Under the pieces are notes generated by a model that did no database searches, was not told the origin of the DNA, and was given only the letters and a program-made list of their open reading frames with translations. This document shows positions 1-36,797 of a DNA stretch of 37,433 nt, in pieces. Within the stretch, counting starts at the first letter, position 1; the number at the start of each line of letters is the position of its first letter. Source of the stretch: a bacterium (GTDB lineage: Bacteria; Chloroflexota; Dormibacteria; UBA8260; Bog-877); the NCBI GenBank assembly GCA_021791345.1, contig JAJYWT010000164.1, positions 1 to 37,433 of the forward strand, written 5' to 3'. Both the position numbers and the translations under genes were made by a program.

Positions 1-114
1 GGCGGGAGCCTGGAGCGCCCCAACACCCGCAAACCGGCCCGCCAGCCCCTGGCGGACGATCTCTGGTCGCACCGCTCCGGGCGCGATCCCTTCCCTGCCC
101 CTACCCGTTACTGA
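1..114 (+). CDS. C-terminal end of an unidentified protein (partial)
   Basis: Frame 1 is open from the window edge to a TGA at 112-114 and gives 37 residues ending in a Pro- and Arg-rich tail (…PFPAPTRY). The stop lies 9 bp from the stop of the convergent endonuclease III gene, a spacing usual for real convergent genes here. The fragment is too short to recognise a family, and it could be a chance open frame in GC-rich DNA. Confidence 0.35.
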   Translation, partial: GGSLERPNTRKPARQPLADDLWSHRSGRDPFPAPTRY

Positions 115-123
115 CCCACGCTC

Positions 124-789
124 CTAGGCAGGGGCCCTGACCGTGCCCACGACCGCCGACGGGCACCAGTTCGCCATCGGGCACAGCTGACAACGCGGAC
201 CCCGGGCCAGGCACACCGCCCGCCCGTGGGCGATGAGACGCAGGCTGAAGTCGGTCCACTCTGAGCGGGGGACCATCCGGCACACCTCGCGTTCGATGCG
301 GACAGGATCCTTGGTGCGCACGATCCCGAGTCGATTCGTGAGACGCATGACATGCGTGTCGACCGGGAATCCCGGCACCCCGAAGCCGACGCCCAGCACC
401 ACGTTGGCGGTCTTGCGCCCAACCCCGGGCAGGCGCAGCAGCTGCTCCATCGCGTTGGGCACCTCACCACCGAACTCCTCGGCGAGCACCCTGCCCATCC
501 CAATCAGGGAACGTGCCTTGGCCCTGAAGAAGCCGGTCGAGTGGATGATCTCCTCGAGCTCGGCGGGCTCGATGGTGGCGTAGTCAGTGGCGGTCCGGCA
601 GCGTTGAAACAGGCGCGGGGTGACCGCATTGACCCGCTCATCGGTCGTCTGGGCCGAGAGGATAGTGGCCACCAGCAGCTGCAGGGGGTCGCTGTGGTGG
701 AGCGCGCAACTCGCGGGGTACAGGACGGCCAGCGCTGCCACCGCAGCCCGCGCCCGCTGGCGGGCGCTCCTGGGCTGACCTGACTCCAT
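124..789 (-). CDS. nth: Endonuclease III (DNA glycosylase/AP lyase)
   Basis: Base-excision repair enzyme that removes oxidised pyrimidines and nicks the resulting abasic site. The 221-residue product has the whole family signature: the helix-hairpin-helix LPGVGRKTAN with catalytic Lys126, the FPVDTHV loop with catalytic Asp144, and a [4Fe-4S] site with Cys193, 200, 203 and 209 in the standard C-x6-C-x2-C-x5-C spacing. The ATG at 789 was chosen because it is followed at once by a family-like N-terminus. A GTG at 819 would add ten residues. No Shine-Dalgarno sequence is visible, and a GAGAAT hexamer (minus strand, 803-798) stands 8 nt before the ATG, so the mRNA may be leaderless. The gene is divergent from the cupredoxin gene at 856. 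Function is secure; only the start is uncertain. Confidence 0.95.
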   Translation of the reverse strand: MESGQPRSARQRARAAVAALAVLYPASCALHHSDPLQLLVATILSAQTTDERVNAVTPRLFQRCRTATDYATIEPAELEEIIHSTGFFRAKARSLIGMGRVLAEEFGGEVPNAMEQLLRLPGVGRKTANVVLGVGFGVPGFPVDTHVMRLTNRLGIVRTKDPVRIEREVCRMVPRSEWTDFSLRLIAHGRAVCLARGPRCQLCPMANWCPSAVVGTVRAPA

Positions 790-843
790 GCGAGGCCATT
801 CTCGCTCGCCCGAGCCCACCGGCGCTCTCGTAGTGCGGCCCGG

Positions 844-849
844 TATCCT
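844..849 (+). promoter_or_regulatory. -10 element of the cupredoxin gene (leaderless start)
   Basis: TATCCT ends exactly 6 nt before the ATG at 856, and no Shine-Dalgarno sequence lies between them. A transcript starting 6-7 nt after the hexamer would begin at or next to the start codon. The same hexamer and spacing recur in front of the MarR gene at 19972. No convincing -35 box is seen. Confidence 0.55.
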
Positions 850-855
850 GGCATC

Positions 856-1350
856 ATGTCGGGTTCCACCATGGCAGCCACCGGCCGGCGGCTGGCCGGC
901 TCACGGCTGGCGATCGGGCTGCTCGCCGTGCTGGTCACCTTCATCGTGGCCGGATGTGGGGCCTTCGGAGATGTCGGCGACCCCACGGATGCGCACATCC
1001 TGACCGCTCCCGGCGCTCCGGTCCAGCAGCGCGACAGCAAGCTGTCCCTGGAGGTGCTGCCCAAGCCCCCGGCGCACCCGGACTACAAGGTGATCATCTA
1101 CCACAACGTCAACACCGTGGGGGAGTTCGTGCCCGAGAGCCTCACCGTCCCGGTGGGGTCCACCGTGGAGTGGATCTGGACCGACCAGTACGACCAGCAC
1201 AACGTCTGGTGGGTGGACCAGGAGTTGGTCAACTCCCCCACCCGCGGTGCCGGGTTCAAATGGGCCGTCAAGTTCCTGGCCCCGGGGGTGTATGACTACT
1301 ACTGCACGCTCCATCCCGGGATGCTCGGACGTGTTGTCGTCACCGGCTAG
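856..1350 (+). CDS. Cupredoxin (blue copper) lipoprotein
   Basis: Predicted membrane-anchored type-1 copper electron carrier of 164 residues. A basic N-terminus and a hydrophobic stretch (18-31) end in a lipobox with Cys34, so the protein should be lipidated and exposed outside the membrane. The plastocyanin-like fold follows from about residue 77. Copper ligands are visible as His115 in the DQHNVWW motif and as Cys150, His153 and Met156 in YYCTLHPGM, the C-x2-H-x2-M arrangement of plastocyanin/amicyanin-type proteins. It is followed 2 nt later by another lipoprotein gene, so the two are probably co-transcribed. A role as electron carrier for the respiratory operon at 3.6-8.7 kb, which lacks a cytochrome c, is possible but is only inference. 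Confidence 0.88.
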   Translation: MSGSTMAATGRRLAGSRLAIGLLAVLVTFIVAGCGAFGDVGDPTDAHILTAPGAPVQQRDSKLSLEVLPKPPAHPDYKVIIYHNVNTVGEFVPESLTVPVGSTVEWIWTDQYDQHNVWWVDQELVNSPTRGAGFKWAVKFLAPGVYDYYCTLHPGMLGRVVVTG

Positions 1351-1351
1351 G

Positions 1352-1762
1352 ATGCGCCGACGGCTCTTGCCGGTCCTGGCGGCGCTGCTGCTGGGTGGCA
1401 GCCTGCTGGCGGCCTGCGCCAGCCCGACCGCCGCCCCGCGGGCCGCGCTCCAGGACTTCCTGGTGGATGTGCATGCCCACTCGGTGGTGTACGCGTACAC
1501 CCTGCTCACCAACTCGGCCGAGGACCGGACTCCGTTCGTCCCCTTCTTCAATTGGGTGAAGTCGAGCCGGTCCAGCTTCAAGATCGTCTCCCTCCATATG
1601 GTGAACGCGGTGGACGCCGAGGCCACGGTCGCCGTCAGCTCTCCAGGAGCTTCAACCCGCTATGTCCAGGTGCAGATGGTGGAGTCGGGCAACGCCGGCG
1701 ACTGGCTGGTGAACGCCCCCTTCGTGACCGAGGGCGACCGAGCCACCAGGCTCTTCGAGTAG
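1352..1762 (+). CDS. Small lipoprotein of unknown function
   Basis: The product is 136 residues. It has a clear type II signal peptide: MRRR start, hydrophobic core, LAAC lipobox with Cys22. The mature part (about residues 30-136) alternates short helices and strands, including VQVQMV and a final GDWLVNAPFV strand, and resembles the NTF2/DUF4878-like fold of small secreted proteins. No catalytic motif is recognisable. The ATG at 1352 lies just after the TAG of the cupredoxin gene. An upstream in-frame start at 1247 would overlap that gene and spoil the signal peptide, so it was rejected. The fold assignment is weak; the lipoprotein call is strong. Confidence 0.8.
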   Translation: MRRRLLPVLAALLLGGSLLAACASPTAAPRAALQDFLVDVHAHSVVYAYTLLTNSAEDRTPFVPFFNWVKSSRSSFKIVSLHMVNAVDAEATVAVSSPGASTRYVQVQMVESGNAGDWLVNAPFVTEGDRATRLFE

Positions 1763-2097
1763 CGAGGCCGACCCGCCCGACGCTGGCCGCCTCCCGGTTC
1801 CTCTTCCGTGCGCCCCGGCCCACCCGGAGTGGACTGGCGCCGCACCCCGGATCGCTCCGGGCGGCAGCCCACTGTCCACCATGTGCGACTTCGCTTCCCC
1901 GGCGGACCCGGACAGTACGCCGGGTGCGCCGCGGACGTTGACCCGGTGGGTGTCTTGGGCCAGAGTGATGGGGTCACCGTGCGGCAGCTGGGGATCGACC
2001 CGGCTCACCTGGGCTGCTCGGTGCCGCGGTCCGACCGCAACCGCATCCGGCAAGCAACGCCCCGGGCGGCGGGTGGGAGCTCGGGTAGACTCGGGCG
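1763..2097. other. Intergenic stretch with no supported gene
   Basis: Open frames run through this GC-rich stretch on both strands, including an upstream extension of the ClC frame from 1881, but their translations look like frame shadows with no motif. No tRNA, terminator or riboswitch core was recognised by eye. At its end TAGACT (2086-2091) may serve as a -10 element for a small reading frame starting at 2098. Confidence 0.5.
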
Positions 2098-2253
2098 GTG
2101 GAGCTGGTCGCCGACCATTCGCTTCTCAGGTGGGAAGCAGCATCTGGCGGGGCAACCGTCGGCTTGAGGAGAGCGGGACGAACACCCTGCCGCAGGCCAG
2201 GCGCACCGGCTTCTCGGGCGACGGTGGCCTCGATCAGCGTTCCGCGTCGATGA
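2098..2253 (+). CDS. Candidate small leader ORF before the ClC gene
   Basis: This is a 51-residue frame opening with GTG at 2098 and reading VELVADHSLLRWEAASGG at its N-terminus, with an Arg-rich remainder. Two things argue that it is real. The -10-like TAGACT (2086-2091) ends exactly 6 nt before the GTG, the spacing seen at several other genes here. Its TGA (2251-2253) also overlaps the ClC ATG (2250-2252) as an ATGA junction, which would couple translation. No family is recognised. It may be a regulatory leader peptide, a small protein or chance. Confidence 0.35.
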   Translation: MELVADHSLLRWEAASGGATVGLRRAGRTPCRRPGAPASRATVASISVPRR

Positions 2254-3578
2254 GACGCTGGCCCCCTCGAAACGTCCCGCCTCCATCTGATCCCCGCGGC
2301 GAGGAGCAGGCCAACGTCCCGGGGCCGCTGCGCGACCTGCCCCCCGCGTTCTGGGGACTGGCCGTGCTCACCGGCATCGGCGCAGGTCTCGGGGCGATCG
2401 TCATGATGGCGGTGCTGCGGTTCATTCAGCACCTGGCCTTCGACTATCACTCCGGCGAGTACTCAGCCGCCGCTGCCGCCCACGGCCCCGGACGGATCGT
2501 GGCCGTGGTGGCAATCGGAGGGCTGGTGACCGGGGTGGGACTCTGGCTGCTCCACCGCTCCGGCAAGGGAACCGGCGGGGAGCCAACCGAAGTCGTCTGG
2601 ACCCATCGCGGCACGATCTCGGTCTCGCGCACCCTGCTGAGCGGCGCGCTCTCGGAGGTGACGGTCGCGCTGGGGGGGTCGATCGGCAGGGAGGCGGCCC
2701 CCCAGCGCACCGGCGCAGCCGCCGGAGCACTGCTCGCGCGCCGGTCCCGGCTGACCGCCGAGCAGAGCGCCCTGCTGATCGCCTGCGGCGCGGGCGCCGG
2801 TCTGGGCGCGGTCTACAACGTGCCCTTCGCGGGTGCGCTCTTCGCCGCCGAGATCTACCTGGGATCGCTCTCGCTCACCGCGGTCGTGCCCGCCCTGCTC
2901 ACCTCCGGAGTCGCCACGGCGGTTTCCTGGCTCACCCTGCCCCGTCACGCGGTCTACTCGATCCCTCATCTGGCGAGCCCGGATCTGGCGATCATGGTTT
3001 TCGCACTCGCGATCGGGCTGCTCGCGGGGCTGGCGTCGGCCGGATACGTCCACCTGATCGGATGGGCCAGCGACCACCGCCCGAGGGGACGCCTCCTGCT
3101 TGTTGAGCCGCTCCTGGCGTTTACCGCGCTCGGCTTGATCGCGGTGAGGTACCCTCTGCTGCTGGGCAACGGCGTCGACCTGGCCCAGTTCGCCTTCACC
3201 GGCTCCGGCGCCACCCTCGCCCTGCTGGCGCTGGCCGGCCTCAAGCCCCTGGTCACCAGCGCCTGCCTGCGCAGTGGGGCCATCGGGGGCCTCTTCACCC
3301 CGACGCTCAGCTTCGGGGCGGCCTTCGGGGCCTTGGGCGGCCATCTGTTCCTCCTGATGGTTCCCGGTGCCATGACTGCCTCGTACGGGATGCTGGGGGC
3401 GGTGGCGCTGCTGGCAGCGGCGATCGAGGCGCCCCTCACCGGAATCGCCATGATGATCGAGCTCACCCACAGCGTGAATCTGGTGGCGCCGATGGTCCTG
3501 GCGGCCGTGGCCGCCACCTTGGTCTCGCGACGATTCGACCTGCGATCGATCTACTCGGCGAGGCTGCCACCGCCATAG
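2250..3578 (+). CDS. ClC-family chloride channel / H+-anion exchanger
   Basis: Polytopic membrane protein of 442 residues from the ATG at 2250, close to the usual bacterial ClC length. The fold-defining motifs are present: GREAAP with the gating Glu148, and GAIGGLFTP (343-351), the anion-pore motif ending in GxFxP. Glu201 in FAAEIYLG sits about where the internal proton glutamate lies in exchangers, which favours H+/anion exchange. The first selectivity motif, usually GSGIP, is replaced by a GGEPTE stretch (109-114), and the usual GREGP reads GREAAP, so ion selectivity may differ from the well-studied chloride proteins. The long open extension back to 1881 has no membrane or family character. 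No Shine-Dalgarno sequence precedes 2250; translation may be coupled to the small frame ending at 2253. Confidence 0.88.
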   Translation: MRRWPPRNVPPPSDPRGEEQANVPGPLRDLPPAFWGLAVLTGIGAGLGAIVMMAVLRFIQHLAFDYHSGEYSAAAAAHGPGRIVAVVAIGGLVTGVGLWLLHRSGKGTGGEPTEVVWTHRGTISVSRTLLSGALSEVTVALGGSIGREAAPQRTGAAAGALLARRSRLTAEQSALLIACGAGAGLGAVYNVPFAGALFAAEIYLGSLSLTAVVPALLTSGVATAVSWLTLPRHAVYSIPHLASPDLAIMVFALAIGLLAGLASAGYVHLIGWASDHRPRGRLLLVEPLLAFTALGLIAVRYPLLLGNGVDLAQFAFTGSGATLALLALAGLKPLVTSACLRSGAIGGLFTPTLSFGAAFGALGGHLFLLMVPGAMTASYGMLGAVALLAAAIEAPLTGIAMMIELTHSVNLVAPMVLAAVAATLVSRRFDLRSIYSARLPPP

Positions 3579-3621
3579 CTCGGCCGCCACCAGCGAGGGC
3601 TCACCCCGACCGCGCTCGGGG

Positions 3622-4092
3622 TCAGGTCTGGGGAGCCACCTCTGGAAGGTCCCCGATCGGCTTGGTGTTCCCGAAGATGTCCTGCTCGGCATCCTCACCA
3701 CCCCCGGCCCGGCCACGGGATGGAAGTCGGTCCGAGCGGCGGTCAGCCAGCCCCATCACGTGGTCGCTGATCCCCTCCCGGCGCAGCACCTCCCAGCCCT
3801 CCTCCAGGGAGAGACCGTTCTCGACCACCACCAGGTCCCCTTCGGTGCGCACGTCCCAGCCGATGTTCTCCAGCCTCCGCAGCACGTCGCTGAGCACCGC
3901 TATCCGTTCGTGGATCAGCTTGCCGGCCGCCGCCAGCCGGACGGAGACCGGCAGATTGGCCGCCGTCGGCCGGTCGGGAAAGCCGAAGGAGTGCATCTCC
4001 AAGTAGGTCTCCATGCCCCGGGAGATCGGCTCGTGGGTCACCTCCGCGAACTCCTCGGAGGCCCGATGGATCGGGCGGAAGACCAGCCTCAC
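3622..4092 (-). CDS. Unknown protein, last gene of the respiratory operon
   Basis: The product is 156 residues with no signal peptide or membrane segment. It has a helical middle (about 45-75, LAAAGKLIHERIAVLSDVLRRLENIGW) followed by a strand pair and a second helix (LSLEEGWEVLRREGI), then a charged, low-complexity tail rich in Arg, Gly and Asp. It has no Cys, so it binds no c-type heme or Fe-S cluster. Its GTG start overlaps the stop of the upstream CydA-like gene (GTGA), which implies coupled translation and a job linked to that complex, for example as a cytoplasmic assembly or regulatory factor. I do not recognise the family. Confidence 0.75.
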   Translation of the reverse strand: MRLVFRPIHRASEEFAEVTHEPISRGMETYLEMHSFGFPDRPTAANLPVSVRLAAAGKLIHERIAVLSDVLRRLENIGWDVRTEGDLVVVENGLSLEEGWEVLRREGISDHVMGLADRRSDRLPSRGRAGGGEDAEQDIFGNTKPIGDLPEVAPQT

Positions 4093-5489
4093 GGGTGGGT
4101 CTCGACCGGCAGGATTACGGAGAAGCCGATGTTGCTGGCGGGGCCTTGGAGCGCCGGCCCGGTCGAGCTCGGGGGCGAGTAGTTCTGCTGTTGGTTGATC
4201 AGCATGTGGTTTGTGATCAGGAACGGTCCCCGGCTGTTCTCGCGGATGAAGCCCATCAGCGCCATGATCAGGGACACCGCAACCCCCACCGCGATCAGGG
4301 AGACCGCCTGGCCCCGCCCGGCGTCACCCCAGCGCAGCTTGCCCCGGCTCACATACTTCAGGTAGATGGTCAGGGCCACGATGCCGACGCCGGTGAAAGC
4401 GACCAGGGCGGTCAGCTTCCAGGGGATCATGGCGCCCCACGGGATCAGCAGACCACCCTGCCAGATCGGCACATTGGCGTTGGCCGCGAAGACGTCCTCA
4501 TAGCTCCACGCCAGCGACGAGGGGGTCGATATCAGCATCCAGGCCCCGAAGGAGAGCACGGTGCAGACCGCCAGCGCCGGCGAGCGGAAACCGCTGGCTC
4601 GCACCCGACGCCAGAGATAGAAGATCCCCACCGTGAAGATCGAGCCCAGCAAGAACACCTGGAACAAAAAGGCCACGCTGAGACCACCCAGCATCATGTC
4701 GTACCAGGAGGCGTAGGCGTGCAGCTGGATCTCCTTGGCGTACTCCCAACCCACCAGCGGCTGGGCGATGGTGAACCCAATCGCGTAGATGAGCCCGTAG
4801 TGGCCCATCCAGTCCAGGTAGGGCCGCACGTCCGGCCGGCGGCCGCTGCGCAGCAGAAGGCGGATCCCAGCGGTCATGGCGATGATCGCCCCCGCCCAGG
4901 CGATGTTGCCCACGAAGCGGTGGATCTCCAGGGGGATCTCGGTGGGATTCATCAGGATGGCGGGCAGGTCGAAGGCGTTGCGCGGGGTCAGCATGTAGGA
5001 GGCGACCATGTTGATCAACAACATCTGCAGCTCCGCGTTGATGAAGAGCAGAATCTCCAGGCCGATGCGAAGCCCCCGCACGCGCCCCAGACGGTCCCAC
5101 CTCGCATAGAGCGGGTAGAGGCAGACGATCTCCCCTACGAAGGCAGCCGCCTCGGCCACCAGCGGCCAGAAGAGCACCCTCTGGATGTCGACCCAGAAGT
5201 GGGACCAAAGCCCGAGGAACAGGATCATGATGGCAAAGATCGCTAGAGAACCTCCCACCGCGAAGGTCGCCCCCAGGGCGGTGACCAGGCCTCGCGAGAA
5301 CCGGTCGTAGCGCTCGCTCTTGCGCTTCCAGCCCACGAAGTCAGAGACCGCCAGGATGATGTATCCCCCCTGCTGCCAGGCGGCGAACTGCACGTGCGCG
5401 AGCATCAGCAGCGCCACCAGAGCGGTCGCCACCCCGGTGGAGATCGGGACCTGGGTGAGCTGGGGTGTGGCGGAGGCTAGCAGTGGCAT
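4089..5489 (-). CDS. CydA-like heme membrane subunit (paralogue 1)
   Basis: The product is 466 residues with about nine membrane segments and resembles cytochrome bd oxidase subunit I. By-eye landmarks match CydA: His32 (heme b595-type ligand, in LAHVQFAAW), Glu113 and Glu120 in the PLVAEAAAFVGE helix (E99/E107 region), a WDRLGRV turn, His190 (heme b558-type, in EIHRFVG), Met265/266 in SWYDMMLGG, and FIRENSRGPF (Glu417), which parallels the GW..ExGRQPW motif. The long quinol-binding Q-loop of E. coli CydA is not evident. It lies 1 nt after the cytochrome b gene and overlaps the unknown gene downstream. No CydB gene is nearby. Homology to CydA is well supported. Whether it reduces oxygen, and from which donor, is unknown. 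Confidence 0.8.
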   Translation of the reverse strand: MPLLASATPQLTQVPISTGVATALVALLMLAHVQFAAWQQGGYIILAVSDFVGWKRKSERYDRFSRGLVTALGATFAVGGSLAIFAIMILFLGLWSHFWVDIQRVLFWPLVAEAAAFVGEIVCLYPLYARWDRLGRVRGLRIGLEILLFINAELQMLLINMVASYMLTPRNAFDLPAILMNPTEIPLEIHRFVGNIAWAGAIIAMTAGIRLLLRSGRRPDVRPYLDWMGHYGLIYAIGFTIAQPLVGWEYAKEIQLHAYASWYDMMLGGLSVAFLFQVFLLGSIFTVGIFYLWRRVRASGFRSPALAVCTVLSFGAWMLISTPSSLAWSYEDVFAANANVPIWQGGLLIPWGAMIPWKLTALVAFTGVGIVALTIYLKYVSRGKLRWGDAGRGQAVSLIAVGVAVSLIMALMGFIRENSRGPFLITNHMLINQQQNYSPPSSTGPALQGPASNIGFSVILPVETHP

Positions 5490-5490
5490 C

Positions 5491-6705
5491 TCAGAGGTTG
5501 AACAGTCGGCCGACGGCCAGCATGGCCTCGAACAGCAGGAACAGGACGGCGAACAGCCCGGGGACCATCACCTCCGGGCGGCGCCAGGGCTGGCGCCCGG
5601 GGGTGCGGTCAAGGAAGGGTACCAGCATGAGCAGGGTGGTACCCAGCCCGGGCACGATGAAGACACCGACCGGGATCATCCAGGCCTGGGGGAACTGCAC
5701 CAGCAGCTGGTCCAGGGGCAGGAAGAACCACTCCGGCGTGGGCACGTAGTTGAGGGCGGCGGGGTTGGCGGCGCGCTCCAGCGGCGCTCCCACCACGATC
5801 GCCATCACGAAGATGATCAGGACCAGGGCGAAGCTGACCACCGCATCCTTGAAGACCTGGGAGGGGAAGAACTCGTCCAAATCGACCGGGACCGCGTAGC
5901 CGGGATCGCTGGGGAGAGCCGGATATGGGGCCTCCGCGGCCGCCATCCGGCGAGCCCGCTCCGCCTCCGTCTCCTCCTCCACCCCCTCGTAGTTGACCCA
6001 GGAGCCATGCTCGCCGTGACGGCGCAGCAGGATCAGGTGTAAGCCGATCATCGGCACCAGCAGCGCCGGTAAGAGCCAGATGTGGATGGCGAAGAACCGG
6101 GTGAGAGTCGCCGGGCCCATCTGTGGCCCGCCCCGGAGGATCTCCTCGATCTGGGTGCCGAAGATCGGAAAGTAGCTGATGATGTGGGTGACGACGGTCG
6201 CGGTCCAGTAAGCGGCCTGGTCCCAGGGGAGCATCGAGCCCGTGATCCCCAGTCCCAGCACCAGCAGGAACAGCACCACCCCGATGATCCAGTTGAGCTC
6301 CCGGGGCTTCTTGTAGGAGCCGCTGACGAAGGTGCGGACCATGTGCAGCCCGATGACGATGAAGAGGATGTAAGCCCCCCACAGGTGCATCCCTCTGACA
6401 ATCGCCGCGAACTCATCGTGATGTTCGATGAAGTTGAGACTCTCCCAGGCCTCGGTGGTCGAGGGCACGTAGGTCCAGAGCAAGAACATCCCGGTCACGA
6501 TCTGGAGGATGATCACGATCAGGGTCGCCGAGCCCAGGGAGTACGCCCAGGCGCCCCGGCGAGGCACCGCCTCATAGAGCAGCTGGTGCATGAGGTCCGT
6601 CACCCCCAGGCGCTCGTCCACCCAACGGTAGGTCGTCGCCATTAGCCCGGAAACCGGCCGCGTGAGCTTGGCCGCTATCGGGCTGCGTTCCAGACCCTGG
6701 GCCAC
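5491..6705 (-). CDS. Cytochrome b of a bc/b6f-type complex (b6 plus subunit IV-like)
   Basis: Integral quinol-oxidising subunit of 404 residues. Two heme pairs are visible: His107/His121 (14 apart) and His208/His223 (15 apart). The 15-residue second spacing is typical of b6-type rather than mitochondrial bc1-type cytochrome b. The C-terminal third carries PEWF (324-327) of the Qo site and three further membrane segments, so b6 and subunit IV regions are joined in one chain, separated by an acidic, Ala-rich linker (about 236-270). The GTG at 6705 directly follows the Rieske stop at 6707 and suits tight operon packing; an ATG at 6642 is an alternative that would leave the heme region intact. 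It probably pairs with the Rieske protein encoded just upstream. Confidence 0.93.
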   Translation of the reverse strand: MAQGLERSPIAAKLTRPVSGLMATTYRWVDERLGVTDLMHQLLYEAVPRRGAWAYSLGSATLIVIILQIVTGMFLLWTYVPSTTEAWESLNFIEHHDEFAAIVRGMHLWGAYILFIVIGLHMVRTFVSGSYKKPRELNWIIGVVLFLLVLGLGITGSMLPWDQAAYWTATVVTHIISYFPIFGTQIEEILRGGPQMGPATLTRFFAIHIWLLPALLVPMIGLHLILLRRHGEHGSWVNYEGVEEETEAERARRMAAAEAPYPALPSDPGYAVPVDLDEFFPSQVFKDAVVSFALVLIIFVMAIVVGAPLERAANPAALNYVPTPEWFFLPLDQLLVQFPQAWMIPVGVFIVPGLGTTLLMLVPFLDRTPGRQPWRRPEVMVPGLFAVLFLLFEAMLAVGRLFNL

Positions 6706-6706
6706 C

Positions 6707-7228
6707 TCACTTGCCCTCGGTGAGAACATTGCGCACGTAGAGGGTGGTCCCAACCAGCTTGTGCTCGTAGCGGAAGAGCGGCTTCGGCGGCGGACCGGCG
6801 ATGTTGGTCCCGTCCATGCTGTACTCCCCGCCGTGACAGGGGCAGAAGAAGACGTTGAGGTTGATGTCCCAGTGGACGTCGCACTGCATGTGGGTGCAGA
6901 CGTTGGAGAGGGTGATCAGCTGCACCTGGTTGTCCAGGTTCAGCTTGACCACGTACACGGTGCGTGGGACGGGCGGGACCTGCCAGGCATCGCCCCCCTG
7001 GTTGAGCATCACCACATAGGCGGTGGGAAGCCCCACCGGCACGTGCTGGATGTCGGCCACCAGAACCCAGGGCTGCTTGAACTTGTAGAACGCCGGGCTC
7101 AGGATCGAGCCCACGATCGGGGCGGCGATCAGGAGCCCGGTCCCGGCCCCGGCCACGTTGATGCCCAGGATCATGAACTTGCGCCGCGACATCCGCCGCT
7201 TGGAGATTGGCAGCTGCGACTCAGCCAT
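6707..7228 (-). CDS. Rieske [2Fe-2S] iron-sulfur protein
   Basis: The product is 173 residues and takes one electron from quinol at the Qo site. The N-terminus has a twin-arginine-like SRRKFM (14-19) and one membrane anchor (about 18-45), as usual for Tat-dependent Rieske proteins. The cluster boxes are CTHMQC (111-116) and CPCHGG (129-134). The ligands are therefore Cys111, His113, Cys129 and His132, and Cys116 with Cys131 would form the stabilising disulfide. The ATG at 7228 overlaps the end of the small membrane protein gene by 8 nt. Its natural acceptor is normally cytochrome c or plastocyanin; neither is encoded in this operon, and a cupredoxin gene lies 5 kb away. Confidence 0.95.
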   Translation of the reverse strand: MAESQLPISKRRMSRRKFMILGINVAGAGTGLLIAAPIVGSILSPAFYKFKQPWVLVADIQHVPVGLPTAYVVMLNQGGDAWQVPPVPRTVYVVKLNLDNQVQLITLSNVCTHMQCDVHWDINLNVFFCPCHGGEYSMDGTNIAGPPPKPLFRYEHKLVGTTLYVRNVLTEGK

Positions 7229-7454
7229 TGCCCTGCACCACGATCAGGATGAGCAAGGACAGGCACAGCCCCCCCAGGAAGAGGAACGTAAAGGCACTAG
7301 CTCCAATCGTGAGCCAGGCCGACATGTGGTCACCGCCCGAGAAGAGCTGCTTGACCCGGCGCAGAGCCATGGTGAGGCCGACGAGCATGATCGCGAAGAA
7401 GCCGGTGATGATGATGCCGAGGTACCAGGCCGACTCGAAATACTGATAGCTCAC
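7221..7454 (-). CDS. Small two-helix membrane protein of the respiratory operon
   Basis: The product is 77 residues with two hydrophobic helices (about 10-30 and 45-73) joined by a short basic loop with RRVKQLF. It has no heme motif and no Cys in a CxxCH context. It overlaps the upstream CydA-like gene by GTGA and the downstream Rieske gene by 8 nt, so it is translated with them and is probably a structural subunit, as small single- or double-helix subunits are in bd and b6f complexes. I cannot assign it to a named family. Confidence 0.8.
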   Translation of the reverse strand: MSYQYFESAWYLGIIITGFFAIMLVGLTMALRRVKQLFSGGDHMSAWLTIGASAFTFLFLGGLCLSLLILIVVQGNG

Positions 7455-8725
7455 GGCAGGATTCCCGGAGGGGCGTCGAAGTTCTGGGCCGACTGGCGGA
7501 GGTTGAGCAGGCAGGCGCTCTGACCGGTAGTCTGATCGATCCCACAGGGTAGCTTCGAATTCTCCTTGATCACCCCCATGTAGATGGAGAGAATCGCTGC
7601 CGCCAGGCCGACGACCACGATGCCACGGGCGGCGGCGGGGCTGATGCGCAGTCGGAGCGTGCCTTCCTCGCGCAGTGAGCGGATGTAGAGCACCAGGTTG
7701 GCGGCGGTGGCGAGGAACGCGATCAAGAGCGCAACGTACCGCAGCAGCACCAGCTGCTGCGGTATCACTGACGCGGGCAGAGCGGCGCCCGCCATCCCCA
7801 AGAGGGCGACCACGGTGAACGTGGCGGCCGGGCCGCTCTCGGCGACCTCCTGGTTGTGACGCCAGAAGACCCAGTTCGCTCCCAGGACGACGACCGCCAG
7901 CAGCACCACCTGGCCCACGAACATCGACCCGGACCCGAAGATGAAGAGGTTGTCGAATGTGCCTGGAGCGGCGGCCTTGATGGTGCCAGCCAGCAGGAAG
8001 CCCGTGATTGGCTGGGCCATCAGGAACACCGTCCCAATCGCGAAGCTGATCCGCGCAGCCCAGCGCTGGTAAATGACCTCAGCCTCGGTCTTGGCGCGGT
8101 GACCCCTCCAGATCGCGACGGCCGCCAAGAACAGTGCCGCCCAGGAGAGCGTTGCCCCCGCGTAGTGGAAGAGCAGCGGCCAGTAACTCGGAGAGAACAT
8201 GGAGTGGGCCGCGCTAATCGCCGTCCCAGGGGTCAGGGCGTAGCTGTCCAGCTGGACGATCATGAAGAGAAACAGGAACTGGATCGTGGAAAACGCGAAC
8301 CCCACCGCGAGGTGAAGCCGGGGGTTCATCTTGTCCCACCGATATATGTAGATGAGTAGCAGCGGGACCCCCACGAAGAAGCTGGCGAAGGCGATCGTCA
8401 GCGGGAGCAGCAGGAGATTCAGCAGGGTGCCGATCAGGCGCCCGTACAGTCCGGTTAGGAAGACCACCGCGAACACCGCCCAGGTCGCCCCAAAGCTGTA
8501 GAGGTACAGGATCGAGTGCGCCAGGGTCTTGGCGTAGCGCAGGCAGCGTTCGTCGCCACCCCGGCGCCTCCCTGCCAGCTCCATGAACGGGGTGATCCCA
8601 GCCGAGCCCAGGACAAAGCCCACCACGGTGATGTGAAGCAGGAAGACGGCCCCGATCGCGATCTCGGCACCGAGGGTGCCGAAGGGCAGTCGTGGTTGTG
8701 GCACCGGGAAAGCTGACAGCAGCAC
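7451..8725 (-). CDS. CydA-like membrane subunit (paralogue 2), first gene of the operon
   Basis: The product is 424 residues from the GTG at 8725 and is highly hydrophobic. It aligns by eye with CydA and with the second CydA-like protein of this operon: His31 (FLLHITVV), the paired segment YRWDKMNPRL, His187 (LLFHYAG), Met268 (GSGSMFVGQ) and GVIKENSK (Glu388), which matches GFIRENSR of the sister. The two Glu residues of the CydA E99/E107 helix have no equivalent here; the matching helix reads PLTIAFASFFVG. The short tail has Cys394 and Cys405, which might form a disulfide. The longer open frame to 9094 runs into holA and was rejected. A GTG at 8704 is an alternative start. The role is inferred: either a heme subunit or a CydB-like structural partner. 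Confidence 0.75.
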   Translation of the reverse strand: MLLSAFPVPQPRLPFGTLGAEIAIGAVFLLHITVVGFVLGSAGITPFMELAGRRRGGDERCLRYAKTLAHSILYLYSFGATWAVFAVVFLTGLYGRLIGTLLNLLLLPLTIAFASFFVGVPLLLIYIYRWDKMNPRLHLAVGFAFSTIQFLFLFMIVQLDSYALTPGTAISAAHSMFSPSYWPLLFHYAGATLSWAALFLAAVAIWRGHRAKTEAEVIYQRWAARISFAIGTVFLMAQPITGFLLAGTIKAAAPGTFDNLFIFGSGSMFVGQVVLLAVVVLGANWVFWRHNQEVAESGPAATFTVVALLGMAGAALPASVIPQQLVLLRYVALLIAFLATAANLVLYIRSLREEGTLRLRISPAAARGIVVVGLAAAILSIYMGVIKENSKLPCGIDQTTGQSACLLNLRQSAQNFDAPPGILP

Positions 8726-8793
8726 TGCGCCACCATGCTGACGGGATGACACCCCCTCTGGCAACTTCCCATCGTGATCAACCCGCCCGGGTC

Positions 8794-8799
8794 GATAAT
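8794..8799 (+). promoter_or_regulatory. -10 element of holA (leaderless start)
   Basis: GATAAT, a near-consensus -10 box, ends exactly 6 nt before the GTG at 8806. This supports 8806 as the true start of holA and a leaderless mRNA. It also leaves room for the divergent respiratory operon promoter in the same interval. Confidence 0.6.
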
Positions 8800-8805
8800 C
8801 GTCTG

Positions 8806-9813
8806 GTGCTAGAACCCCTGGTCCTGATCCACGGGGGCGACTCCTACCTGGTGGGAGCCGCCGCTCAGGAGTTCCGGGACCAGCTCTGCGCCGATCTGAT
8901 CTCAGAGCTGGGGCTGGAGGAGTTCCGATCCGCGACCGACCTGGATGAGATCGAACGCAGCCTGGCCACCCCGCCGTTCCTAGCGGTGCGGCGGGTGGTG
9001 ATGATCTGGGACCCACCGCAGATCGCCCCGCCCAAGAGGCAGGCCACCACGGCAGCCGCCGACTCCCAGCGGAAGCGCGACGGGCAGGAGGCAAGGCTGC
9101 GGGGCCTGCTCCGAACCCTGGCCGCCCGGGCCGAGACCACAGCCGCCTGCGTCGTCGTCAGGCAGGCGCTCCCGCCCTCCTCGGCCGCAGTGAAGGGGAT
9201 CAGGGCCCTGGGAGGCGAGGTAAGGCTGGTGGCCGCCCCCAGGGGGCAGGACGTCACCCGTCACGTCGAGTCCCGGGCGAAGGCTCGGGGGCTGAAGCTT
9301 CCCCCTCAGGCGATCCACCTGTTGACCGATGTGGCCAACCAGGACATGGGCTGGTTGGAAAGCGAGCTCGACAAGCTCGCCCTCTACGCCGCGGATGGGC
9401 ACCCCGTCACGCCCCAGGTCGCCCGCCTCCTGGTCCCGGCCGCCCCGCCGCAGGAGCTCTACCGGCTGACGGACGCCATCTTCGAGGATCCCAGCAGCGT
9501 GGGCCGCCGACTCGATGCCCTCTGGGGCCGTCCCGACGTCCAACCCCAGGTGTTGGTTGGCACCGTGGCGAGGGTCCTGCGTGATCTCATCGCCTACTCG
9601 GATCCCGATCAACGTCCCGCCCTTGAGAACACTCCCGCCTGGCGTCTGCGTAAGCTTGCAGCTCAGAGTTCGCGAGCTGGAGCCTCCCGGCTCCGCCGCT
9701 GGCTGGTGGAGCTGTCCGAGCTGGACTGGCTGACCCGGACCGGCCAGGTGGATGGGCGCGAGGGTGTGGACCTGCTGCTGGCCCGGATGGCCTTCGAGGT
9801 CCAGATCGGCTGA
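8806..9813 (+). CDS. holA: DNA polymerase III delta subunit
   Basis: Clamp-loader subunit that opens the sliding beta clamp. The 335-residue product starts like other HolA proteins with a strand and loop, LVLIHGGDSYLV, followed by helical AAA+-like domains. ANQDMGWLESELDKLALYA (about residues 181-199) matches the conserved HolA region in which a helix of this type links domains II and III. The C-terminal helical domain ends with LDWLTRTGQVDG and DLLLARMAFEV. An upstream ATG at 8746 is in frame, but the GATAAT box 6 nt before the GTG at 8806 and the usual family N-terminus favour 8806. It is convergent with rpsT; holA-rpsT proximity is common in Gram-positive-type genomes and supports the call. 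Confidence 0.9.
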   Translation: MLEPLVLIHGGDSYLVGAAAQEFRDQLCADLISELGLEEFRSATDLDEIERSLATPPFLAVRRVVMIWDPPQIAPPKRQATTAAADSQRKRDGQEARLRGLLRTLAARAETTAACVVVRQALPPSSAAVKGIRALGGEVRLVAAPRGQDVTRHVESRAKARGLKLPPQAIHLLTDVANQDMGWLESELDKLALYAADGHPVTPQVARLLVPAAPPQELYRLTDAIFEDPSSVGRRLDALWGRPDVQPQVLVGTVARVLRDLIAYSDPDQRPALENTPAWRLRKLAAQSSRAGASRLRRWLVELSELDWLTRTGQVDGREGVDLLLARMAFEVQIG

Positions 9814-18405: not shown

Positions 18406-19584
18406 ATGGACGTAGTCGACGTGGTGATCATCGTGGCCCTGGCCTACGCGGCGGTGGTGGGCTACCGCCGTGGTCTCACCTACTCCCTGTTCTCCCTCGT
18501 GGGCCTGGTGGTGGGCCTGGTGGTGGGGTCCTGGCTGGCGGCGACCGTTCCCCCCCTCCTCCACCAGTTCTCGGGCACAATCCGGTCAGCGATCGCGATC
18601 GGGCTGGTCCTGGCGGTGGCATTTCTGGGCGACGCCCTGGGCGGTTTGGTGGGAGCCCGGCTGCGGGTCACGACCCTGCGCAGCCACCTGGGGCCCGTCG
18701 ACTCGCTGGCCGGGACCGCCTGGGGGCTGGTGGTGGTGCTTGCGGTGAGCTGGTTCCTGGGCCTGGTCTTCGAACAGGGCCCCATCCAACCGCTTGCCGC
18801 GCAGATCCAAAGCTCCACCATCCTGCGCACCCTCGACCGCAACCTTCCTGAGGGGCCGGCCTGGCTCGGCTACCTCCAGCACGTCTTCAGTGCGGTGCCC
18901 TTTCCGCAGGTGTTCGCCGATCTGGTGCCGCCACTCCCAGGCCCGGTGGCCCTGCCGGGAGACCTGAGTGGCGACGTCGCCATCCGCCGGGACGCCGCGG
19001 AGACCGTGAAGGTGGTGAGCTCGGGCTGCGGCGGCCTGATCGAGGGAAGTGGCTTCCCGGTGGCCCACGACCTGATCATGACCAACGCCCACGTCGTGGC
19101 CGGGACCCACGGCACCACAGTCGCGATCCCCGGGCGACTGGGTTCCCTGCCGGCACGAGTGGTCTTCTTCGACCCCCGCACCGACCTGGCCCTGCTGCTG
19201 GTCCCCGGGCTCGACCTCAACCCGCTCGCCTTCTCTGACAGCGGCTCCCGCGGCACCCAGGGCGCGGTGATCGGGTATCCGGGCGGCGGCAGCGAGCAGG
19301 TGGTGCCCGGAGCGATCCGCGGTGAGATCCAGGCGGTCGGGCGCGACATCTACTCGCAGGGACTGGTCAGCCGCCAGATCTTCGTCCTCGAGGCGAACGT
19401 CATCCCGGGCAACTCCGGAGGACCGTTCGTCAACCTCCAGGGCGAGGTGCTGGGGGTCGTCTTCGCCAAATCGCTGGTGACCAACGACGAGGGCTACGCC
19501 CTCACCGCGCGGGAGATAGCTCCGGATCTGGCCCGAGGGGAGCACGACAGCACCCCGGTGTCGACCGAGAGCTGCGTCGACTAG
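18406..19584 (+). CDS. marP: MarP-like membrane serine protease (CvpA domain plus trypsin-like domain)
   Basis: The product is 392 residues. Residues 1-150 form a CvpA/colicin-V-production-type domain with four membrane helices. A chymotrypsin-like protease domain follows. The catalytic triad is visible as His229 (TNAHVVAG), Asp260 (RTDLALLL) and Ser337 (GNSGGPFVN). This is the layout of mycobacterial MarP, a periplasmic protease needed for acid and oxidative stress resistance through cell-wall hydrolase processing. A strong AGGAGGG Shine-Dalgarno sequence (18397-18403) lies very close to ATG 18406. Two cysteines at the protease N-terminus of MarP form a regulatory disulfide; here only Cys208 (SGCGGLIEG) is seen near that place. 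Confidence 0.88.
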   Translation: MDVVDVVIIVALAYAAVVGYRRGLTYSLFSLVGLVVGLVVGSWLAATVPPLLHQFSGTIRSAIAIGLVLAVAFLGDALGGLVGARLRVTTLRSHLGPVDSLAGTAWGLVVVLAVSWFLGLVFEQGPIQPLAAQIQSSTILRTLDRNLPEGPAWLGYLQHVFSAVPFPQVFADLVPPLPGPVALPGDLSGDVAIRRDAAETVKVVSSGCGGLIEGSGFPVAHDLIMTNAHVVAGTHGTTVAIPGRLGSLPARVVFFDPRTDLALLLVPGLDLNPLAFSDSGSRGTQGAVIGYPGGGSEQVVPGAIRGEIQAVGRDIYSQGLVSRQIFVLEANVIPGNSGGPFVNLQGEVLGVVFAKSLVTNDEGYALTAREIAPDLARGEHDSTPVSTESCVD

Positions 19585-19935
19585 GCGCCGCGCGACGGTC
19601 ATCCCGCCGCGGGTCGCGAGGCAGGGCGGGTTCTCCTGATCCGTCCCGTCAATGGGTGGCATCCATCGATCCCGGAGCCACGGCTCGGCGGCGCTCGGTG
19701 GCAGCCATCCAGACGATGGGTGCGGCCGAGGCCAGGCGCCAGGCCGGGCGCGGACGAGCGCTGACCGACCCGGCCCCGGCCGGATTGCCGAGGACTGGGG
19801 GAAGTGGTTCGGAGCACATGTCCCCCGTGCTGCGCCATGCCGTCAGCCCAGATCCACGAACCGAAGTGGCGACTCCCGTGGTATCGGGTAAGAGGGCGCC
19901 CGGTGCGAGCCGGCCCCATCCCGCTCCCACCCGCC
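19585..19935. other. Intergenic stretch with no supported gene
   Basis: About 350 bp between the protease stop and the MarR promoter. Short open frames on both strands have no motif. Several short inverted repeats occur, including GGGGGA at 19797 pairing with TCCCCC near 19818-19823, but no known RNA family was recognised. It may hold the terminator of the protease gene. Confidence 0.4.
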
Positions 19936-19971
19936 TTGTCATTAGGTTAACTAATTAGGTATCCTAATAAC
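19936..19971 (+). promoter_or_regulatory. Promoter and palindromic operator of the marR-MFS operon
   Basis: An AT-rich island in very GC-rich DNA. The -35 TTGTCA (19936-19941) and -10 TATCCT (19960-19965) are 18 nt apart. The -10 ends 6 nt before ATG 19972, so the mRNA should be leaderless. Two inverted repeats overlay the promoter: ATTAG-GTTAA-CTAAT (19941-19955) and ATTAGG-TAT-CCTAAT (19954-19968). They share the direct repeat ATTAGGT at 13-bp spacing. This is the expected layout for autorepression by a MarR dimer that blocks the -10 region. Confidence 0.82.
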
Positions 19972-20445
19972 ATGACGACGAGGAACCCAACCACAGAGCG
20001 TCCCCCAGAGGGCCTGGAGGTCGCCTCCTCCGAGCTGGGCCAGCGGCTGCCCCTGGTCATGACCCTGCTGGGGCGAAGCCTGCGCCACGCGTACACCCCC
20101 ATCGGGGTCAACCTGGGCCAGTACCCGGTCTTGAACTCCTTGCTCGAGCATCCCGATTCGTCGGTCTCCGAGCTGGCGGCGCGGGAGCGGGTCAAGCTGC
20201 CATCCATGACCGCGGTCGTCCACCAGATGGAGTCGGACGGCCTGGTCGCCAAGCAGGCCGACCTCAGCGACCGCCGCTGCGTGCGGATCAGCCTCACCCC
20301 CAGGGGCCGGGAGGTCGCGGAGGCCGCTCGCCGTGCCCGTGCCAGCTGGTTCGCAGAGCGGCTCGACCACCTGAGCCGTGCTGAGGTCGCCGCCATCAGC
20401 CGCGCCCTGCCAGCGCTCGAGCATCTGGTGCATCTCGACCAATGA
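19972..20445 (+). CDS. MarR-family transcriptional regulator
   Basis: Winged-helix repressor of 157 residues. The DNA-binding part is seen as SVSELAARERVKLPSMTAVVHQMESDGLVAKQ (helix-turn-helix, about 61-92). It is followed by the wing DLSDRRCVRISLTPRGREV (95-113), a signature of MarR proteins, with dimerisation helices at both ends. It probably represses its own operon through the two palindromes just upstream and responds to a small hydrophobic ligand, as many MarR proteins do. Its TGA overlaps the ATG of the MFS transporter gene (ATGA), which suggests control of efflux. The start ATG has no Shine-Dalgarno sequence and appears to be at the 5' end of the mRNA. Confidence 0.93.
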   Translation: MTTRNPTTERPPEGLEVASSELGQRLPLVMTLLGRSLRHAYTPIGVNLGQYPVLNSLLEHPDSSVSELAARERVKLPSMTAVVHQMESDGLVAKQADLSDRRCVRISLTPRGREVAEAARRARASWFAERLDHLSRAEVAAISRALPALEHLVHLDQ

Positions 20446-27263: not shown

Positions 27264-27347
27264 CGGGGCATTCTCGCAAATGGACCGACCCACGAGGCCG
27301 ACCGCCAGCCGGCTGCGGGTCCACGCCCAGCCGGCTGCGGATCTCAA

Positions 27348-27380
27348 TGCGCAACCCACTTGCACAAATTGGTTGCGCAA
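27348..27380 (+). promoter_or_regulatory. Operator upstream of the Fur-family gene
   Basis: A perfect 9-bp inverted repeat, TGCGCAACC (27348-27356) and GGTTGCGCA (27371-27379), with a 14-nt spacer. Within it the 7-mer TGCRCAA occurs three times at exact 13-bp intervals (27348, 27361, 27374). It sits just before the -10 box of the Fur-like gene and within 120 bp of the divergent glucosidase start. Fur/Zur/Nur dimers bind such repeats, so this is the likely metal-responsive operator. Confidence 0.75.
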
Positions 27381-31446: not shown

Positions 31447-31518
31447 GGGGCCGTGGCGCAGCGGCAGCGCGCTTCCTTGGCATGGAAGAGGTCGAGGGTT
31501 CGATTCCCTCCGGCTCCA
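31447..31518 (+). tRNA. tRNA-Ala (anticodon GGC)
   Basis: Complete cloverleaf. Acceptor arms are 31447-31453 and 31511-31517 with the G3:U70 pair that identifies alanine tRNAs. D stem is GCGC/GCGC, anticodon stem CTTCC/GGAAG with loop TTGGCAT (anticodon GGC at 31479-31481), and T arm GAGGG/CCCTC with loop TTCGATT. A73 is at 31518 and the next bases are CG, so CCA is not encoded and must be added. Accessory genes begin directly downstream. Confidence 0.95.
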
Positions 31519-31530
31519 CGCCGTGCGTCT

Positions 31531-33410: not shown

Positions 33411-34028
33411 CTGCCTGCTCCGCTCAGGTGGGCGACATTTCGGCTACTGCCAGTTCCTTCTCTCATGGGATAGCAGGCACGGTTCGCCGCGTGCCGACTT
33501 TGGGATTGATGATCCACCGGATCGTTGCGGACGGGTGTTGGCATAGATCCGCTGTCACAAATGCAACCCGACCAGCTTCGAGAGAGGCGCCGGATGAACC
33601 GGGGCAAGCAGCGCATCGGCAGCTGACTCACCAAGTGGCGCTCCCTGCCAGCCAGAGCTTAGCGGTCACCAGACCATCAGAAATCCAGCGTACGAAGTCT
33701 CGTGGCCTCGCCACCCAAGCGAATGCCGGGCGTCGGGAACGGGAGTGCCGGAACGCCACCGTAGCATTCCTCGCCAATTGCATGAGCGAGCGATACAGGA
33801 CGGTGGAGCTCAACGCCCTTGCCGAGGCGATCGTGGAGGCCAAGGACGCGGCGGCGCGAAGTAGACGCTGGCCTGCCAGTCATGCTCCTCCCGCTCAGGA
33901 CCTACGCCGACATCGCCGCATCCGCTCCCCTCCGGCGACAGCCGGAGGGGGATATCCTACTTCTTGCTGGGCGACCATGAGTCTTTGACACCTGTCATCG
34001 ACGCTCCTTGCCAAGGCGACTCTCAACC
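33411..34028. other. Non-coding or decayed stretch with a strong hairpin
   Basis: About 620 bp without a gene I can support. One frame (around 33700-33860) looks protein-like in composition and may be a decayed remnant, but no family was recognised. A perfect 10-bp hairpin, CCCCTCCGGC (33927-33936), GACA loop, GCCGGAGGGG (33941-33950), stands near the end; no T-run follows. TTGACA at 33985-33990 is a consensus -35 box, but a matching -10 before 34029 is not clear. Confidence 0.5.
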
Positions 34029-34730
34029 ATGACCCGAATCTCGCGCGTTGGCGACGTCAGGCGCCTCGACCTCGGGTACTTCATACGCCCGGCGACCGAG
34101 ACCGGCACCGGACACTCCCGGGTCGAGCCAGTCTACGGCTACCTCGTAGTTCACCCCGAGCTCACGGTCATCTTCGACACCGGGATCGGTGCCGCTGACC
34201 CCGAAACCGAGGAGCACTACCGGCCGCACCGCCGACCGCTTGAGATGGCCTGCTCAGACGTGGGATGCAGCGTCGAGGCGATCGACATGGTGATCAACAG
34301 CCACCTGCACTTTGACCACTGCGGCGCGAACCCGGCGCTCCCCGGTCGGAGGATCGTCGTCCAAGCGGCGGAGCTGGAAGCAGCAGGCGCGGAGACCTAC
34401 ACCTTCTCGGCGCTGGTCGATTTCGACGGCGCGATCTACGATACGGTCAAAGGGGAAGCTGAGGTCGCCGATGGCCTTCTGGTTGTGCCCACCCCCGGCC
34501 ACAGTCCTGGGCACCAGTCCCTTCTCGTCCAGGCCCAAGACGGCACCCTCCTCATCGCCGGGCAGGCGACGGACTTCGCCTCGGAGTACGGGAGCGCGCA
34601 GCTCGCGCGTCGCGCGTCCCTCGAGGTTGGCCGCCCCGTCGGAATGTGGCCCGACTGGCTCGACCGCATCGAGCGGTTCGACCCCGCCCGGGTCGTCTTC
34701 GCCCACGACCGCGCCACCCTGGCGCGCTGA
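34029..34730 (+). CDS. Metallo-beta-lactamase-fold hydrolase, AHL-lactonase-like
   Basis: The product is 233 residues. The metal motif SHLHFDHCG supplies His92, His94, Asp96 and His97. TPGHSPGHQ supplies a further His (His158 or His162), and FAHD near the end gives the last ligand. YGYLVVHPELTVIFDTGIG (about 37-55) is the usual first strand region of the N-acyl-homoserine-lactonase family. Where many relatives have an Asp that bridges the metals, this protein has Gln in LLIAGQATD, also seen in some family members as far as I recall. The substrate may be a lactone, but other esters or thioesters are possible. ATG 34029 is preferred over a TTG at 34008. Confidence 0.85.
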   Translation: MTRISRVGDVRRLDLGYFIRPATETGTGHSRVEPVYGYLVVHPELTVIFDTGIGAADPETEEHYRPHRRPLEMACSDVGCSVEAIDMVINSHLHFDHCGANPALPGRRIVVQAAELEAAGAETYTFSALVDFDGAIYDTVKGEAEVADGLLVVPTPGHSPGHQSLLVQAQDGTLLIAGQATDFASEYGSAQLARRASLEVGRPVGMWPDWLDRIERFDPARVVFAHDRATLAR

Positions 34731-36721: not shown

Positions 36722-36797
36722 GGGGCGATAGCTCAGCTGGAAGAGCGCTGCCCTCGCACGGCAGAGGTCAGGGGTTCGAATCCCCTTCGCTCCACCA
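36722..36797 (+). tRNA. tRNA-Ala (anticodon CGC)
   Basis: Acceptor 36722-36728 pairs with 36787-36793, again with the G3:U70 alanine identity pair. Anticodon stem CTGCC/GGCAG, loop CTCGCAC (anticodon CGC at 36755-36757), T arm AGGGG/CCCCT with loop TTCGAAT. A73 at 36794 is followed by an encoded CCA (36795-36797), unlike the GGC alanine tRNA at 31447. Confidence 0.96.

Follow-up and report, generated by a model that had tools for sequence, protein, structure and literature searches.

Characterized cytochromes bd are, to our knowledge, quinol oxidases that bypass complex III. Within the 37,433-nucleotide stretch of DNA analyzed here (the window), genes for two CydA-like proteins share an operon with those for a Rieske protein and a cytochrome b, which raises the question of how electrons would reach the CydA pair. 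The original prediction, made from the sequence, offered two answers: electron flow from Rieske to a CydA-type site, or a CydA-type complex that has a quinol site itself. With moderate confidence, we favor a cytochrome-c-free III-IV module in which electrons would pass from quinol through b/Rieske and a cupredoxin to a CydAA'-type O2 reductase.

The operon predicted at positions 3622-8725 of the minus strand stands: its six genes, encoding CydA2, a 77-aa protein, Rieske, cytochrome b, CydA1 and a 156-aa protein, overlap or touch, and gene-neighborhood reading found their order unbroken in all 13 close loci. The genomes compared are drafts. CydA1 matches were found in 52 genomes of the class, and among the 42 whose loci were read, 35 have the core order CydA2-Rieske-cytochrome b-CydA1 (in four of these a contig end cuts CydA1); the other seven are contig-end fragments compatible with that order. 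The core order also occurs in three genomes of the same phylum outside the class, and the neighborhood survey suggested as a check on the prediction therefore finds the genes linked beyond close relatives. The 77-aa hydrophobic protein (7221..7454, minus strand), in which two helices can be seen by eye, and the 156-aa protein (3622..4092, minus strand), the start of which overlaps the end of CydA1, occupy the same slots in 13 of 13 close loci, the latter also in some distant ones. The former reached the cut-off of no Pfam family and gave no profile match in several distant loci (L077-L081, L104, L106), and the latter matched nothing in Pfam or NCBIfam. Promoter and terminator scans of positions 1-9000 returned nothing above shuffled sequences, and no paper on this operon was among the matches listed from the open-license literature. 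The Rfam matches consisted of two tRNAs only.

The features expected of complex III are present. The Rieske iron-sulfur protein (6707..7228, minus strand; Pfam PF00355, 1.8e-08) carries the 2Fe-2S motifs CTHMQC and CPCHGG, whose Cys and His are conserved in 38-39 of 39 aligned sequences. The b6-type cytochrome b (5491..6753, minus strand, start codon uncertain; PF00033, 3.6e-47) has a subunit-IV-like C-terminal part, the Qo motif PEWF and four heme His, which are found in 40 of 41 rows, with one gap. Its best NCBIfam model is cytochrome b6 (NF002990, 2.5e-65, below the curated cut-off), and no Cys stands at the place expected for heme ci. A cytochrome c1 or f subunit is missing in that no CxxCH protein is encoded in the operon, as originally noted, or elsewhere in the window. 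In 17 close genomes (a set that excludes G240, whose cytochrome b is similar to theirs but which has no CydA1 match), the only strong PF00033 match is the cytochrome b of the operon, and so it probably also feeds the heme-copper oxidase.

Profile and fold comparisons settle the identity of both large proteins, neither of which falls outside the CydA fold and family; an hhalign comparison of CydA2 with the single E. coli CydA gave a probability of 2.8, and one of CydA1 with CydB gave nothing. CydA1 (466 aa; 4089..5489, minus strand), the proposed catalytic subunit, has H32, E113, E120, H190, E417 and R420 matching E. coli H19, E99, E107, H186, E445 and R448, whereas CydA2 (424 aa; 7451..8725, minus strand) retains the H19, H186 and, mostly, E445 positions without E99 or E107. 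In E. coli, H19, E99, H186 and E445 serve the hemes and O2 site. In an alignment from which three rows of 330 aa or less had been dropped, with three rows reassigned to CydA2 and four solo genes kept separate, the CydA1 columns at H19, E99 and H186 are conserved in 38 of 38 rows each and E445 in 37 of 37, with one gap; the corresponding CydA2 counts are 39/39 (H19), 0/39 (E99), 38/39 (H186) and 32/38 (E445). Before this tree-based regrouping, the E99 column held E in 41 of the 46 rows called CydA1 by profile. The Met393 column, the second ligand of heme b558 in E. coli, is varied in both paralogs (Met in 3 of 38 CydA1 rows, in a weakly aligned region), which leaves the heme content uncertain. 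The CydA1 and CydA2 sequences separate into two supported groups, the inner clades of one mirroring those of the other, on a tree that has a long E. coli branch (3.41), seven open forks and only a midpoint root and that includes no named OR-N references. The paralogs are encoded together without CydB, in agreement with the original reading of the operon, and the CydB family PF02322 was matched in one of the 17 close genomes.

The predicted structure places helices 271-298 and 304-320 where the Q-loop would be, judged by the E. coli layout. No equivalent of E. coli K252 and E257, the Q-loop residues of the quinol oxidase, is seen in the alignment; that region is weakly aligned. Because the Q-loop is replaced in the model, it is less likely that a CydA-type complex oxidizes quinol at a site of its own, the alternative originally suggested.

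The other suggestion, electron flow from Rieske to a CydA-type site, fits because the quinol site appears to be lost, but it overlooked a gene outside the operon that probably encodes the likeliest carrier. This is a cupredoxin lipoprotein of the plastocyanin/azurin family (856..1350, plus strand; PF00127, 7.3e-09, over the cut-off), with an H-C-H-M site intact by eye; its distance to CydA1 is 2.7 kb here and 0.9-10.8 kb in relatives. Of the 17 close genomes, 12 encode a cupredoxin on the contig that carries the operon, as found in nine by an orthologue profile or tblastn and in three by PF00127 only, and in the remaining five the contig ends before one could appear; none was found linked in most of the other clades read. 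Adjoining the cupredoxin is a small lipoprotein (1352..1762, plus strand, start inferred) with no Pfam match, for which a query that also gave many chance matches found counterparts beside the cupredoxin in L002, L003, L010, L013 and, weakly, L012. In related operons the gene following CydA1 varies: a cupredoxin is fused to CydA1 in P0069 and directly after it in L096, a cytochrome c holds that place in L084, a cupredoxin that has lost all four copper ligands follows in L080, and L083 has a solute-binding protein and no carrier. Among the distant sequences that the CydA1 profile matched weakly are fusions of CydA with cytochrome c (P0134-P0147, E 5e-12 to 7e-7).

Carriers and oxidases were counted in the genomes of relatives, not in the window's own. 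Family searches of the 17 close genomes found cupredoxin and COX1 in all 17, CydB in one and cytochrome c (PF00034/PF13442) in one, and the cytochrome c assembly family PF01578 in none; taken as sequence matches, the cytochrome c counts would argue against a cytochrome c donor. Across the class, cytochrome c was found in 27 of 52 operon genomes versus 50 of 58 others. Seven of the 52 CydA1-positive genomes showed neither cytochrome c nor cupredoxin (G218, G220, G221, G223, G229, G222, which has a weak COX1 match only, and G249, a 1.7-Mb bin), a count that could miss carriers belonging to families other than those searched. We accordingly abandoned the idea of cupredoxin as a universal donor and, because of these seven, leave direct Rieske-to-CydA transfer open. 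The idea of a sole oxidase was also dropped, as COX1 is present in 99 of 110 class genomes and in all 17 close ones. Fe(II) oxidation was considered and set aside; a Dormibacterota bin recovered from acid mine drainage reportedly has a caa3-type oxidase and no Fe(II)-oxidation genes (PMC8357290).

In the route that we favor, the operon would encode complex III, consisting of the b6-type cytochrome b and Rieske, and beside it a CydAA'-like pair, from the bd superfamily, in which the quinol site is lost. Quinol would be oxidized at the b/Rieske Qo site, Rieske would hand electrons to the membrane-anchored cupredoxin, and the cupredoxin would feed the CydA pair. We infer that O2 would be reduced at CydA1, paired with CydA2 as a degenerate partner in CydB's place, possibly within a physical complex. 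Cupredoxin would replace cytochrome c in the window's lineage, and the same pool may also feed a separate CuA-type heme-copper oxidase. Only tentatively can a broader version be put forward: Rieske would supply a bd-family O2 reductase with electrons without cytochrome c, using cupredoxin in the lineage of the window, and genomes with neither carrier would rely on direct transfer within a single complex.

Transfer could instead be direct, with b, Rieske, CydA1 and CydA2 forming one fixed complex in which the Rieske head passes electrons to a CydA heme with no mobile carrier in between and the cupredoxin serves the heme-copper oxidase only. The tight, fixed gene order, the position of the cupredoxin gene outside the operon, and the five genomes G218, G220, G221, G223 and G229, which keep the operon without a cytochrome c, cupredoxin or COX1 match, are consistent with such a complex. 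However, a carrier gene directly after CydA1, or fused to it, in some related operons would be hard to explain if no carrier were needed, those five genomes could have carriers from families other than those searched, and the predicted structures are of single chains; we regard this arrangement as unlikely.

More improbable still is that the CydA pair does not reduce O2 and acts in an alternative-complex-III-like manner or takes part in reverse electron flow, along the lines suggested for bd-like proteins in nitrite oxidizers. Conserved residues are no proof of substrate, but wherever a CydA1 row has a residue at the E99, H19 and E445 positions, it is the conserved one, as expected of an O2 site. 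Nor do we give much credence to a quinol-oxidizing pair, like the archaeal CydAA' that Murali et al. reportedly identified in 2021 as a quinol oxidase, merely co-transcribed with a b/Rieske complex serving the heme-copper oxidase. The single strong cytochrome b of the close genomes, with its probable second role, would suit this very doubtful reading; the two helices in place of the Q-loop, the lack of K252 and E257 counterparts (where the alignment is weak) and the persistence of the fixed order in genomes without a COX1 match argue against it.

If the cupredoxin route is correct, a bd-family enzyme would sit behind complex III, the Q-cycle would be coupled to that enzyme, and copper would take the place of cytochrome c. 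The window's close relatives seem to respire without c-type cytochromes, yet retain a heme-copper oxidase. The b/Rieske-CydA core is constant across lineages, but what comes after CydA1 differs (a cupredoxin, a cytochrome c, a fused cupredoxin or no carrier), so that the donor serving non-quinol CydA families can be tested directly.

The coupling of Rieske to CydA, presented in the original prediction as possibly unusual, has a precedent, which we compare here by published description. Nitrospira moscoviensis likewise encodes a Rieske/cytochrome b pair (CIII_1) in the same genomic region as two CydA-like proteins, bd-like_1 and bd-like_2, for which a III-IV supercomplex was proposed (PMC6606698); that region additionally includes several c-type cytochromes together with an alternative NXR gamma subunit, whereas the window has six packed genes, no CxxCH and a cupredoxin nearby. 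The OR-N type CydAA' of Nitrospinota and Nitrospirales similarly comprises paired CydA paralogs thought to work together and not as a quinol oxidase, but its donor is thought to be cytochrome c (PMC10839748, PMC12342949), which the window's close relatives nearly lack. A bd-like oxidase encoded in Nitrospina, Nitrospira and anammox clusters shares the retained heme b ligands, membrane helices in place of the Q-loop, the absence of quinol residues and cupredoxin-like genes in the cluster; it differs in its 14 predicted helices and NXR cluster, and the available text describes no Rieske/cytochrome b coupling (PMC3578206). A review on III-IV supercomplexes makes, in its accessible portion, no mention of cupredoxin, plastocyanin, halocyanin or sulfocyanin (PMC8361435). 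The CydA-cytochrome c fusions (P0130; P0134-P0147) provide CydA with its own electron-accepting domain, containing heme c, whereas the domain fused in P0069 is a cupredoxin and the window's carrier is a separate gene. The combination of Rieske/cytochrome b with two bd-like oxidases and cytochromes c in a single region is thus already known from Nitrospira; what is new here is the compact, copper-linked form.

Six minus-strand genes that overlap or abut one another (8725 to 3622) encode, in order, CydA2 (7451..8725), a 77-aa hydrophobic protein, a Rieske protein, a b6-type cytochrome b, CydA1 (4089..5489) and a 156-aa protein, confirming by gene content, order and ends the original prediction of a Rieske/cytochrome b module joined to two CydA-like paralogues. 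Cytochrome b, Rieske and CydA2 had Pfam matches above cut-off; the CydA1 sequence alone had none, and a profile of its family matched solved CydA chains. Named protein matches were mostly from Dormibacteria. None of the window ORFs of at least 60 aa contains a CxxCH motif. Elsewhere, the window encodes an MGH1-like/GH63 glycosidase (24663-27380), a protein with a metallo-beta-lactamase fold (34008-34730) and two tRNA-Ala genes with anticodons GGC (31447-31519) and CGC (36722-36797).

All six genes keep this order in 13/13 close loci. Within the class of G003 (the Dormiibacterota genome of locus L003; its phylum is presumably Chloroflexota), 52/110 genomes had CydA1 matches. Operon loci were inspected in 42 of these 52, and 35 showed the order CydA2-Rieske-cytochrome b-CydA1, with CydA1 cut by a contig end in four (G223, G215, G116 and G252); the other seven are contig-end fragments, none contradicting the core order. 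The 77-aa and 156-aa genes were undetected in some distant loci. A sample of the same phylum gave CydA1 matches in 21/201 genomes, an identical core order in three genomes outside the class (G186, G097 and G094), and four loci (L088-L091) with a CydA-like gene lacking b/Rieske. In the class of G094, CydA matched at E <=1e-20 in 6/29 genomes, two of which hold the pair. A phylogenetic tree split CydA1 and CydA2 into two groups (support 95/90 and 99/98), with the copies from G186, G097 and G094 basal in each and mirrored clades within both. Profile search had made the upstream copies of these three genomes CydA1-like; the tree groups them with CydA2.

We aligned 38 CydA1 and 39 CydA2 sequences (assigned by tree) with four solo CydA proteins and E. 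coli CydA, whose numbering and presumed residue roles served as reference; many rows are close relatives and thus not independent in the following counts. The H19 position was kept in all CydA1 and CydA2 rows, and H186 in 38/38 and 38/39, respectively. E99 was kept in 38/38 CydA1 rows (41/46 when grouped by profile instead) and E107 in 27/38; neither occurred in CydA2. E445 was kept in 37/37 CydA1 (one gap) and 32/38 CydA2 rows, and R448 in 36/36 CydA1 rows (two gaps). Positions Met393, K252 and E257 were not conserved, in a weakly aligned part. The predicted CydA1 structure has helices 271-298 and 304-320 at what we take to be the Q-loop place of E. coli CydA. Together, these residues and helices suggest a catalytic role for CydA1, with CydA2 as its degenerate partner, in an enzyme that is not fed by quinol in the usual way. 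CydA1 matches in G058, G067, G139 and others were split near residue 215-220 of the window protein, as if by an insertion of roughly 20-35 residues.

The interpretation in the original prediction, a single complex passing electrons from Rieske to a CydA-type site, is partly supported; it had missed a cupredoxin lipoprotein at 856-1350 on the plus strand (PF00127, 7.3e-09), with its H-C-H-M site intact by eye in the alignment. A small lipoprotein without Pfam match (1352-1762) adjoins it, likewise in several relatives. Among 17 close genomes (G001-G013 and G236-G239; CydA1 at least 63% identical over the best stretch), the operon shares its contig with a cupredoxin in 12, where CydA1 and the cupredoxin lie 0.9 to 10.8 kb apart; orthologue search identified nine of these cupredoxins, and PF00127 alone those of G001, G005 and G008. 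In the other five, the contig stops 1.8 to 8.0 kb past CydA1. Near the cupredoxin of locus L002 lies a second, divergent b6-like cytochrome b (19466-20185; PF00033, 7.9e-12); the 21 kb of this locus gave no further Rieske match.

Farther away, one supported clade includes protein P0069, a CydA1 fused with an intact cupredoxin; locus L096, where an intact cupredoxin gene adjoins CydA1; and L080 (G049), where each of the four copper ligands is replaced in the cupredoxin directly after CydA1 (5325-5870; H to D, C to S, H to N, M to E). A cytochrome c gene adjoins CydA1 in L084 and lies one gene further in L082; L083 has no carrier gene next to CydA1, and searches of the remaining distant Dormibacteria loci gave no linked cupredoxin.

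Family searches of draft genomes found both cytochrome c and cupredoxin in 27 of the 52 CydA1-positive genomes, cupredoxin only in 18 and neither in seven; cytochrome c occurred in 50/58 class genomes without a CydA1 match. All 17 close genomes have cupredoxin and COX1 (haem-copper oxidase subunit I), one has cytochrome c (G237), one CydB (G007), and none the cytochrome c assembly family PF01578. Each has one strong PF00033 match, the operon's (E 3e-45 or better), and most a second, weak one, in L002 the b6-like protein. From this inventory, cupredoxin is the one carrier, among the families searched, that could link the operon's Rieske with an oxidase in close genomes. One close genome's oxidase locus (L110, about 3246-5652) encodes COX1 together with a subunit II that lacks CxxCH and whose ligands look CuA-like by eye; since that genome lacks cytochrome c and assembly matches, this oxidase seems to need another donor.

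On balance we lean towards a route in which quinol would give electrons to b/Rieske, the Rieske side would pass them to cupredoxin, and cupredoxin would feed a CydAA' O2 reductase. Possible archaeal parallels involve halocyanin or sulfocyanin. The strongest rival, direct Rieske-to-CydA transfer, appears rather unlikely. A natural test case for transfer without a carrier is offered by G218, G220, G221, G223 and G229 (loci L092-L095 and L124), which have the operon (a fragment in G220) and CydB, and whose drafts, possibly incomplete, gave no cytochrome c, cupredoxin or COX1 match; they speak against cupredoxin as universal donor. The other two of the seven genomes with neither carrier matched, G222 and G249, are less clear-cut.

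Non-quinol CydA families are already described, and OR-N CydAA' is thought to take electrons from cytochrome c (PMC10839748, PMC12342949). Besides several cytochromes c, one N. moscoviensis region encodes a Rieske/cytochrome b pair and two bd-like oxidases, and a III-IV supercomplex has been proposed there (PMC6606698). In Nitrospina-type bd-like oxidases, membrane helices replace the Q-loop and cupredoxin-like genes lie nearby (PMC3578206). Given these precedents, the operon is a variant of a kind already described. It is compact and copper-linked, roughly half of the class genomes carry it, and the close relatives that have it are nearly devoid of cytochrome c.
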